DNA of 35,652 nt. It comes from Lentisphaerota bacterium (lineage in GTDB: Bacteria > Verrucomicrobiota > Kiritimatiellia > PWTM01). The DNA is taken from contig VGWF01000040.1 in assembly GCA_016873715.1 (NCBI GenBank), positions 1 through 35,652 on the forward strand. Direction: 5' to 3'. Shown here in pieces: positions 31,038 through 35,652 of this stretch (position 1 is its first letter; each line of letters begins with the position of its first letter). The notes beneath the pieces were generated by a model, which saw only the letters and a list, made by a program, of their open reading frames with translations, ran no database searches and had not been told where the DNA came from. Both the position numbers and the translations under genes were made by a program.

Positions 31038-33128
<2,091 letters not shown>

Positions 33129-33205
33129 GTGTGCCTTTCCCTTCTTCTGGTGACCTCGGTCCGACAGGCTCCCTTGCTTCGCCGTCGCCGAAAAAAGATC
33201 CGCAT

Positions 33206-33235
33206 ACTGTAGAGCAAACGGCCGCCCCGAGTCAA
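33206..33235 (-). promoter_or_regulatory. Promoter of hppA
   Basis: On the minus strand TTGACT (33235-33230), an 18-bp spacer, TACAGT (33211-33206). This is among the best sigma70-like matches in the window. The leader would be about 70 nt and includes a run of six T (33196-33191). Confidence 0.6.
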
Positions 33236-33564
33236 GGGCGAACCCGGCCGGACGGATATGCCATAAACGTCTTAGGAAGAACCAATTGCGAGATTCACAA
33301 GGGACGTGGGGCGGGGCGCCGTCATCCGTGGTCCATCAGCATCCGGCATCCGGCGGGAGAGGCGCCGACGCGCCCCATCTGCGCTCTCCCGCCGTCCAGC
33401 TCCCGTCCGCCGCAGGGCAGACGCATCTTCCTCGAGGGAGTGGCACCTTTCGGTCGGTGGGGCGCGGAGTGGCTGGTGGACGCTGGAGCCCTTGCGGTTG
33501 CGGGGGTGCGACGCGCACCAGGCCGGCCGGATCGCGCGGGATCCCGCCCCGCCTGCGGCGTTGC

Positions 33565-33601
33565 CGAAGGGGGCGCGGACACGAGTCCAGCGCCCCCTTC
33601 G
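33565..33601. other. Strong isolated hairpin
   Basis: CGAAGGGGGCGC (33565-33576) pairs perfectly with GCGCCCCCTTCG (33590-33601); inside, GGAC (33577-33580) pairs with GTCC (33585-33588) around the loop ACGA, with A33589 bulged. That gives 16 base pairs and a tetraloop. It is far from any gene end (about 330 bp before the glycosidase, 440 bp upstream of hppA) and has no T-run on either strand. Confidence 0.7.
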
Positions 33602-33851
33602 TCGCCTTGCATCCGGGGCGGTCTGCCGCGTTCCCGGCCGGGCCCCTCGCGGGCTCGGGGCCACCCGGTGCGCGCCGCGGCATCGCCTTCGCCTTGATTC
33701 AAGGATCGTTCGGCTGGGATCTCCCTTTCCCGGCGATGGAAGGGGAATCCTGAGGATCCCGCGCACACGGCCCGGTTTCGACAGGAACAAGATGCGTCGG
33801 CCCTGCTTCCCGCCGGTTGCCCCCTGTACGCCGGTGCGCCGGCGGGTGTAC

Positions 33852-33900
33852 CTTCCAACCCTTGGAAGCCCGGCGGGGCGGACCTTCCAATCCTTGGACG
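33852..33900. promoter_or_regulatory. Two TTCCAA-n3-TTGGAA palindromes upstream of a glycosidase gene
   Basis: The first, CTTCCAA-CCC-TTGGAAG (33852-33868), is a perfect 7-bp-arm palindrome. The second, CTTCCAA-TCC-TTGGACG (33884-33900), differs only at its last arm bases. Their starts are 32 bp apart, three helical turns, so proteins bound at both would face the same side. They end 31 bp before ATG 33931. Confidence 0.6.
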
Positions 33901-33930
33901 TCTGCGGCCCCGCGGGGGAGGATTCCGGGC

Positions 33931-35652
33931 ATGGATGGGACCGGCGGGAGCCGTCCGGGGCGTTCCGGGCGCCGGGTTCGGGCCTTCGCGTTGCTGGCTG
34001 CGGTCCATCTCCTGCCCGCCGTCGGGCCGGGGGGCGCGCCGGCGTTGGAGGCGGCGACGAACCGCGTCGGGCGCTTCGAAACCCTCGAGTTCCGCCTCGA
34101 TCCGGGAGCGTCCTACACCAACGTCTTCGACCCGGCCGAGGTCGACTTCCGGCTGGAAGTCCGCGGCCCCGGCGGCGGGGTGACGACCGTCCCGGCCTTC
34201 TGGACGGCCCCGCACGCGCTGAGGACGCCCCCGCAGGGCGAACGCCGCCGCGAATGGACCGAGCCGGACGGGGCCCCGGGCTGGCGCGCCCGTTTTGCGC
34301 CGGTGGAGACCGGCCGCCACAGCGCGGTCGCCCGGCTCCGCGACCGGCGCGGGGAGTCGGCGTCCGGCGCGGTCGCCTTCGAGGCCGTCGCCTCGACGAA
34401 CCGCGGGTACGTCCGCGTGTCGAGGCGCGATCCGCGCTTCTTCGAACTGGACGACGGCACCCCGTTCTTCGCGATCGGGCAGGACGTCGCCTTCGTCGGT
34501 CCGATGCAGCGCGTCACCCCCGGCCGCGTCGGCGGCGTCTTCCGGCGGATGGCGGGGAACGGCGCGAACTACGCCCGCGTCTGGACCTGCTGCGGCGACT
34601 GGGCGATGAGCCTCGAGCCCGGCCGCGGCGGGGCGGGGCCGTCGGACGGCCGGTCGCGCGCCGCGCCCGCGCCGGACGCGCCGCGGGGCATGGGCGTCTA
34701 CAACCAGCCGGATGCGGCGATCCTCGACCGCGTCGTCGCCGAGGCCGAAGCGGCGGGCATCCGGCTGCAGCTCTGCCTGCTCACGCGCGACCGCTACATG
34801 GGGCGGCTGAAGCAGCCGGACGGGCCCGACTACGCCGCCGCGATCCGCGACGCGAGGAACCTGCTGCGCTACGCGATCGCCCGCTGGGGCGCCTCGACCG
34901 CCGTCGCCGCGTGGGAGTACTGGAACGAGCAGGATCCCGGCCTGCCCGCCGGCCGCTTCTACGCGGATCTCGGCGCCTTCGTCGCCGGGACCGACCCCTG
35001 GCGGCACCTGCGGTCGACCAGCGCGTGGGCGCCGGCACCGAAGGACTGGACCCACCCGGACCTCGACGTCGCCGACCTCCACTGGTACCTGCGTCCGAAC
35101 TGGAACGAGCTGTGGAAGGACGCCGCCGCCGCCGTGGCGGACCGCGCGGCCTTCCTCCGCTCCCGCGCGCCCGCGAGGCCCGCCCTCCTGAGCGAATTCG
35201 GCCTGGCCGACGAGAAATGGGGCCCGAGCCCGTTCATGAAACAGGACCGCGATCTCCTCCACGTCCACGATGCGCTGTGGGCGTCCGCGATGTCGGGCCT
35301 CTCGGGCACCGTGATGTTCTGGTGGTGGGAGCGGTTGGACGAGATGGACGGCTACCGCCACTACCGCCCGCTCGCGGACTTCGTCGCCGGCATCCCCTGG
35401 ACCACCGGCGGCCTGCGGTCCATCGACGCGGCGGTCTCGCCGGCCCCCCGGCTGCGCGTCGCGGGGCTCCAGGGCGCCGGCGGGGCGTGGGCGTGGCTTT
35501 CCGACGCCGACGCGGCCTGGTGGAATGTCGTCGTCGACGGCCGGGCGCCGCAGGAGGTGCGCGGGGCGGCGCTTTCGGTCGCGGGGCTCGCGGACGGGGA
35601 GTACGACGCCGGCTGGTGGGACACCACCGCCGGCCGCGTCCTGCGCGAGGAC
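33931..35652 (+). CDS. Secreted DUF5060-like / clan GH-A glycosidase, cut by the window end
   Basis: 574 residues are visible with no stop. A twin-arginine-free, basic N-terminus (SRPGRSGRRVRAFALLAAVHLLPA) looks like a signal peptide. Residues about 35-150 form a beta-sandwich beginning VGRFETLEFRLDPGASYTN and VDFRLEVRGPGG, as in DUF5060 modules that precede cellulase-like barrels. FFELDDGTPFFAIGQD marks the start of the barrel. AWEYWNEQDP gives acid/base E333, and ALLSEFGLAD gives nucleophile E422; GTVMFWWWERLDEMDGYRHY is the last barrel strand. A C-terminal beta domain begins near 510 and runs off the window. GGGGGAGGA precedes ATG 33931 by about 9 nt. Substrate unknown. Confidence 0.87.
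   Translation, partial: MDGTGGSRPGRSGRRVRAFALLAAVHLLPAVGPGGAPALEAATNRVGRFETLEFRLDPGASYTNVFDPAEVDFRLEVRGPGGGVTTVPAFWTAPHALRTPPQGERRREWTEPDGAPGWRARFAPVETGRHSAVARLRDRRGESASGAVAFEAVASTNRGYVRVSRRDPRFFELDDGTPFFAIGQDVAFVGPMQRVTPGRVGGVFRRMAGNGANYARVWTCCGDWAMSLEPGRGGAGPSDGRSRAAPAPDAPRGMGVYNQPDAAILDRVVAEAEAAGIRLQLCLLTRDRYMGRLKQPDGPDYAAAIRDARNLLRYAIARWGASTAVAAWEYWNEQDPGLPAGRFYADLGAFVAGTDPWRHLRSTSAWAPAPKDWTHPDLDVADLHWYLRPNWNELWKDAAAAVADRAAFLRSRAPARPALLSEFGLADEKWGPSPFMKQDRDLLHVHDALWASAMSGLSGTVMFWWWERLDEMDGYRHYRPLADFVAGIPWTTGGLRSIDAAVSPAPRLRVAGLQGAGGAWAWLSDADAAWWNVVVDGRAPQEVRGAALSVAGLADGEYDAGWWDTTAGRVLRED

Follow-up and report, generated by a model that had tools for sequence, protein, structure and literature searches.

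At the end of a contig from a Lentisphaerota bacterium (GCA_016873715.1, VGWF01000040.1), two copies of the palindrome TTCCAA-N3-TTGGAA lie upstream of a candidate glycoside hydrolase gene, which raises the question of whether such a pair is the operator of that gene, a dispersed repeat of the lineage, or the footprint of something that acts on the whole chromosome. The window, the whole stretch of DNA that was analysed, comprises 35,652 nucleotides, and the features needed here are the following:

31038-33128, minus strand: H+-pyrophosphatase gene, on the other flank of the site pair
33853..33867, no strand: site 1, perfect palindrome TTCCAACCCTTGGAA, TTCCAA-N3-TTGGAA with 0 mismatches
33868..33884, no strand: spacer of 17 bp, its length kept among source-genome pairs, its sequence hardly
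33885..33899, no strand: site 2, TTCCAATCCTTGGAC, 1 mismatch (end base), start-to-start 32 bp from site 1
33931..35652, plus strand: DUF5060-type gene (574 aa when read from 33931), truncated by the end of the contig; shown as neighbourhood, not as a proven target

The preliminary description had reported one perfect and one near-perfect copy 32 bp apart before a glycosidase gene. The pair was confirmed at 33853-33867 and 33885-33899, and a gene does lie downstream of it, with a glycosidase identity that is plausible, not proven. With the H+-pyrophosphatase gene on the minus strand and the DUF5060-type gene on the plus strand, the pair sits in a divergent intergenic region; an Rfam scan of 33200-34100 returned no match. 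A candidate start (ATG at 33931) preceded by GGGGGAGG is found 31 bp past site 2, and the gene caller preferred a later one at 33991, 60 bp further on. The 574-aa product had no Pfam match at 1e-3 and no NCBIfam match, its DUF5060 match being below threshold; it matches 9gmj, a solved DUF5060 protein, at 3e-42, and is possibly a glycoside hydrolase. A separate dispersed repeat of about 305 bp, distinct from the motif, occupies window positions 33501-33806 and ends 47 bp before the pair; it is 97% identical to L127:10550-10855, and whole or partial copies occur in L143, L185, L135, L194, L136 and L129 (genomes, contigs and loci are designated below by G, C and L numbers).

Five matches with up to three mismatches were counted in the window, against 2.0 expected from shuffles. 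The decisive control for the reality of the motif is not this number but the genome-wide count, which the preliminary description had proposed as a check: the source genome (5.13 Mb in 289 contigs) holds 96 perfect copies and 0 of the reversed pattern. Among all 6+3+6 palindromes, runs of N set aside, TTCCAA ranked top in five of five genome sets, with a lead of 53 vs 2 in 400 kb of G099; in the source genome it is nearly matched by TCACGC (38 vs 35), which is a REP-like element. A comparison of gap lengths between the TTCCAA and TTGGAA arms found a gap of 3 almost exclusively. Among 435 perfect sites (named loci and G013), 98% have a G or C at the centre, and the arms are often bordered by T/A runs, giving the consensus TTTTCCAA-NSN-TTGGAAAA. 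One-mismatch sites are not random either, TTCCAG making up 57 of 135 in G099 and GTCCAA 15 of 28 in the source genome. This structured mismatch spectrum, together with the G/C centre, resembles the specificity of a protein. A search for an alternate motif of like build in the copy-poor genomes G113, G071, G016 and G048 (40-120 kb each) yielded a candidate in G071 that was REP-like and a GC palindrome in G016.

The expansion of this motif is limited to one class, Kiritimatiellia-like. The phylum survey drew evenly on 387 genomes that were at least 80% complete, the source and same-family genomes being counted among the 131 class rows. Within the class, copy number ranges from 0 to 1,339, the maximum being reached in a 5.3 Mb genome: 35 genomes have at least 20 copies (12 of them at least 300), 15 have 2 to 19 and 81 have 0 or 1. 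Three genomes exceed 1,000 copies. No genome outside the class has more than 5, and the reversed control gave 0-3 per genome across the survey. Within the single genus g28, the number swings from 1 to 1,177. A scan of named genomes for the 31/32-bp pair returned at least 116 stretches; most of 80 titles read Kiritimatiellae, Lentisphaerae, Verrucomicrobia or Spartobacteria, and among the matches listed about one quarter were titled 'uncultured bacterium' and one Firmicutes. From the titles among these listed matches, we infer that the class is Kiritimatiellia. The pair was also found in viral contigs (four stretches on three contigs) and in 6 of 18 copy-poor genomes. By eye, pairs of the copy-poor genomes (L145, L146, L147, L148, L150) adjoin restriction, RhuM, nucleotidyltransferase and toxin-antitoxin-like genes, and were perhaps imported from site-rich donors; the open frames read at five of these six loci included no common regulator gene next to the pairs. 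The open full-text literature searched contained no description of the motif, or of such palindromes or repeats in this class, an earlier mention being possible.

The spacing between sites is as constrained as the sites themselves. The unit in the source genome is a pair: 29 of 36 clusters contain sites 31 or 32 bp apart, and among 30 neighbour spacings of up to 140 bp (788 kb, about half of it picked for having sites), 27 are 32 bp and three 31 bp. The named loci had been picked for having a 31/32-bp pair, from listed matches only, and phasing and counts therefore do not rest on them alone. In G099 DNA not picked for sites (up to one mismatch, distances of 18-170 bp), 59 pair distances gave R = 0.84 at a period of 10.45 bp with a mean phase of about 0 (p about 9e-19), and with distances of 29-34 bp removed, the remaining 43 were still phased (R 0.81, p about 5e-13); because distances within one array are not independent, these Rayleigh p values are nominal. 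The corresponding values for G013 were 0.88 (n=73) and 0.79 (n=29). Across 16 whole genomes, G099 and G013 included, the 75 listed of 88 perfect pairs at 33-47 bp comprised 12 at 33 bp, one at 34-39, 59 at 40-44 and three at 45-47. With two genomes dense in arrays left out, 39-44 bp accounted for 45 of the 49 listed pair distances of 34-47 bp. The 44-bp distances in G108 and G122 mostly reflect 22+22 arrays. Site distances thus correspond to whole helical turns (2, 3, 4, 5), with three turns (31-32 bp) favoured, integral turns being what is expected of a cooperatively bound DNA-protein array. The largest array has seven sites (G022:C41). Steps of 22 and 30-31 bp are mixed at L160:7082-7263 and in the G108 and G122 arrays, where the 7-bp spacers of close pairs are mostly A/T-rich.

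Based on these features, the consensus is, with reasonable though far from complete probability, the recognition site of a putative sequence-specific dimeric protein present in part of the class and occupying the chromosome cooperatively. The existence of this protein, its dimeric binding, its cooperativity and its chromosomal function are all inferred from sequence. Putative dimers on adjacent sites would touch, or be linked via a partner, and such contact would require sites on one face of the DNA; this would account for the distances of 2, 3, 4, 5 or more full turns and for the preference for three. Cooperative protein binding would be expected to give helical phasing, symmetry of the dimer type, arms under constraint and spacers free to vary, as seen here.

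Dispersed, often paired palindromes may also be mobile repeats, such as REPINs or MITEs spread by a REP-associated transposase; REPIN and REP elements with their RAYT transposase are dispersed palindromes in pairs, and elements of this type are present in these genomes. In the source genome, a REPIN-like TCACGC-N3-GCGTGA occurs in pairs, most of them at a distance of 41 bp; its flanks are conserved and it sometimes forms tandem arrays (L129:16865-17250, L185:10979-11409, L198:1509-1815 and others). In G071, a REP-like CAGGCG-N3-CGCCTG (L248, L249), also present within a match at G324:C21:8358, has a partly conserved GTACCG flank. Unlike these true REP-like elements of the source genome and G071, which retain their flanks, TTCCAA sites have spacers and flanks that are largely not common to the copies. 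The mean best identity of source-genome spacers was 0.42 vs 0.41 +- 0.006 for shuffled ones, with values of at least 0.85 in 1 of 435 pairs. Spacers were not alike beyond shuffled in G099 (0.333 vs 0.356; near-identical in 0 of 91); those of G013 were somewhat more alike (0.41 vs 0.375), a point in favour of a mobile repeat, with only 1 of 861 near-identical. Flanks of G013 sites gave only six directed short matches. Those of the source genome gave 38 directed matches, and the strongest of the 12 listed was due to the separate 305-bp repeat upstream of this and other sites. Nor was a cognate Y1 (RAYT) transposase found where copies abound: Y1 matches did not track copy number, with 183 sites and 0 matches in G003, 58 and 0 in G007, 3 and 21 in G025, and 0 and 17 in G230. 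Many sites also lie within predicted genes in all frames (see below). A transposase-driven repeat was rejected and is a very improbable origin. Largely unshared flanks, untracked Y1 transposases and intragenic sites together indicate neither a REPIN or MITE nor simply the operator of a glycan regulon.

The placement of sites relative to genes bears directly on the regulon question. Genes were called with a home-made caller, least sure in the source genome with its 71% GC; a retrained version was used for source and G099 DNA, and the named loci were annotated with the first version, which set false antisense genes in the GC-rich source genome. Arrays lie between genes in 30 of 36 cases in the source genome, 23 of 35 in G013 and 142 of 209 in the named loci (49 inside genes, 18 at edges). 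For G099, 40 pieces totalling 800 kb of the 3.88 Mb genome were sampled: genes contain 69 of the 111 perfect sites, spread over all three frames (21/26/22), and the other 42 fall in the 10.9% of bases outside genes. Arrays are not tied to promoters, being no less frequent in convergent regions than in divergent ones: the counts for convergent, divergent and tandem regions were 6/14, 4/15 and 12/51 in G013, and 4/50, 4/70 and 21/241 in the source genome. Genes around or beside sites include DHDPS, Dus and HMG-CoA reductase, assigned by Pfam, and pyrE, lysA, MurC, UvrA and PriA, assigned by reading of the sequence; site-bearing genes seen by eye in G099 were MurC, ClpX, UvrA, PriA, PanB/PanC and several sulfatases. 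Site presence did not clearly differ between core and accessory genes, and the same 40 pieces of G099, inspected by eye, revealed no trend towards origin or terminus.

A classical operator of a limited regulon, bound by a dimeric transcription factor in front of glycan or other metabolic genes, would explain the window pair itself and several neighbourhoods. In the source genome, sulfatase or GH127 genes account for 5 of the 21 that have a site cluster no more than 400 bp upstream, vs 23 of 567 others (Fisher 0.002), in a post hoc test whose families were picked after looking and in which two of the five are adjacent duplicates. At L193:10028-13180, two neighbouring GH127 genes are each preceded by a near-identical site array, apparently duplicated together with them. 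When array neighbours were clustered, only sulfatases, pyrE and lysA recurred next to arrays in at least three genomes (genomes being tagged for L005-L084, and L085-L120 counted by locus), with no regulator among the recurrent genes. Arrays were found 25-37 bp upstream of pyrE in three genomes and 14-15 bp upstream of lysA in two, a third overlapping the predicted start; since 33% of genes in the array-neighbour set are within 300 bp of an array, three of three is weak alone. The region before pyrE would be an old conserved target, and lysA perhaps another. Yet sites are not confined to the promoters of one gene group: most G099 sites are intragenic, convergent regions are as array-rich as divergent ones, and the copy number of three genomes is above 1,000. 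In an otherwise site-rich genome, G099:C1:100001-220000 (L206-L211), a stretch of 120 kb in which many sulfatase and glycan genes were recognised by eye, holds 0 perfect and 8 one-mismatch sites. At 12 of the 22 pyrE loci, the 200 bp preceding the protein motif contain no perfect site. Such an operator is therefore unlikely. Of the earlier proposal of cooperative binding by a dimeric regulator of glycan genes, the dimer-type palindrome and the helical spacing stand, and the restriction to glycan genes falls: a modest sulfatase/GH127 excess exists downstream of sites, which are not specific to such genes, given mixed neighbours, convergent arrays, intragenic sites and the 120-kb stretch. Its other suggestion, a dispersed intergenic element of this lineage, holds for the dispersal in one lineage and fails for a purely intergenic location.

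Sites in convergent regions and inside genes favour a chromosome-wide role over a one-regulon operator. The putative protein probably binds the motif cooperatively all over the chromosome; it would cover up to hundreds or more than 1,000 places, intergenic and intragenic, and may be a nucleoid-associated protein or a global regulator, some of whose targets, the one before pyrE among them, would be old and conserved. Were it lost or less important, sites would decay by point mutation.

Orthologous loci provide examples of both conservation and decay. In coding DNA of two genomes with 72.6% nucleotide identity, an orthologous pair keeps 24 of 24 arm bases and the 31-bp spacing, with centres, spacer and amino acids changed. 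The search that returned it gave eight distinct comparisons, one with both sites intact, two with partners without sites and five partial or degraded. In a comparison of G099 sites with other loci, between 1 and 3 mismatches were counted in the partner in 8 of 8 cases. G099 and G054 both hold a 53-bp pair at 75% overall identity; at the same locus, only one of the two sites is retained in G051, the other being degraded, and G324 has no sites. The pyrE survey comprised 27 matches, of which the 22 with the protein motif used to position sites were assessed. Upstream of this motif, two to three sites, some mismatched, were found in G000, G003, G005, G007 (one perfect and one with two mismatches), G013 and G084, one site and a degraded one in G134, and one site in G174; these arrays occur in two families. 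Among copy-poor relatives, the pair is clearly eroded in G002, and G006 has two sites with one mismatch each, indicating that such relatives lose sites by substitution. Site turnover is fast overall. Orthologous conservation is limited, which counts against the preferred reading, as does the swing within one genus, larger than expected for a core nucleoid protein.

Copies by the hundreds to thousands, in and out of genes, with turnover among species, are also characteristic of the DUS and USS of Neisseriaceae and Pasteurellaceae. If the motif were a DNA uptake signal favoured by the competence machinery, copies would build up by uptake and recombination, genes included, and decay once uptake stops; more than 1,000 coding and intergenic copies, spacers that are not common and decay in copy-poor relatives all agree with this. 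Neisseria uptake sequences are likewise near stop codons, and median distances of arrays to stop codons were shorter than for random placement in the named loci (26 vs 45 bp) and G013 (11 vs 31 bp), a nearness predicted by neither a global regulator nor a nucleoid protein. No such nearness was detected in G099 (42 vs 48) or G054 (119 vs 106). ComEC, the only competence gene considered, is present in 58 of 60 class genomes; it is equally common without sites, and the site-rich G134 has no match, so that the difference between genomes is left unexplained. Moreover, neither the helical phasing, which extends across 2-5 or more turns, nor arrays holding as many as seven sites would be expected where one site suffices, and we know of no uptake signal that is palindromic. 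Altogether, an uptake signal appears rather unlikely, though better placed than the operator.

Positions of HIP1, a palindrome of cyanobacteria, include genes too. As described in PMC4390886, HIP1 is a highly iterated palindrome with a very high and patchy copy number, and the likeness extends to a short palindrome, very many copies and patchiness among relatives. The TTCCAA palindrome is similarly over-represented in coding and non-coding DNA, which would suit a HIP1-kind sequence made and kept by DNA methylation and linked repair. The motif differs by its gapped 6+3+6 build, its G/C centre and its helically phased clusters. A gapped 15-bp site in phased arrays, with free centre and spacer, favours cooperative protein binding, making a HIP1-kind origin quite unlikely, slightly more so than the operator.

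The cooperative dimeric protein has its closest known counterparts in the systems that use parS, NBS (Noc), SBS (SlmA) and matS, short dimer-bound palindromes dispersed on the chromosome and some of them intragenic. TTCCAA sites share the short, dispersed and partly intragenic palindrome, with dimer binding putative; they differ by far more copies, phased arrays, no extra ParB paralogue, and no excess at origin or terminus (by eye, 20% of G099). The ParB family does not separate rich from poor genomes, 56 of 57 having a match, mostly once, and an extra ParB paralogue was rejected as the binder. No binder gene was found among the candidates considered, Y1 transposase, ComEC and ParB all failing to track sites.

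Beyond a conventional regulator, these data raise the tentative possibility, one we hold at less than even, of a new chromatin system in part of the class, in which a dimeric protein would tile hundreds to more than 1,000 sites in helix phase, genes included, bind tightly enough to constrain intragenic DNA, and be gained or lost rapidly between sister species. If an uptake signal were instead the true explanation, it would be a palindromic and helically organised one. A phased pair at 31 bp, with a 36-bp control, offers a simple bait for finding the protein. The motif suggests that this little-studied class harbours a DNA-binding system yet to be discovered. Having an explicit helical grammar, and present in more than 1,000 copies in some genomes vs almost none in sister species, it is also a natural experiment on the spread and decay of sites across a chromosome.
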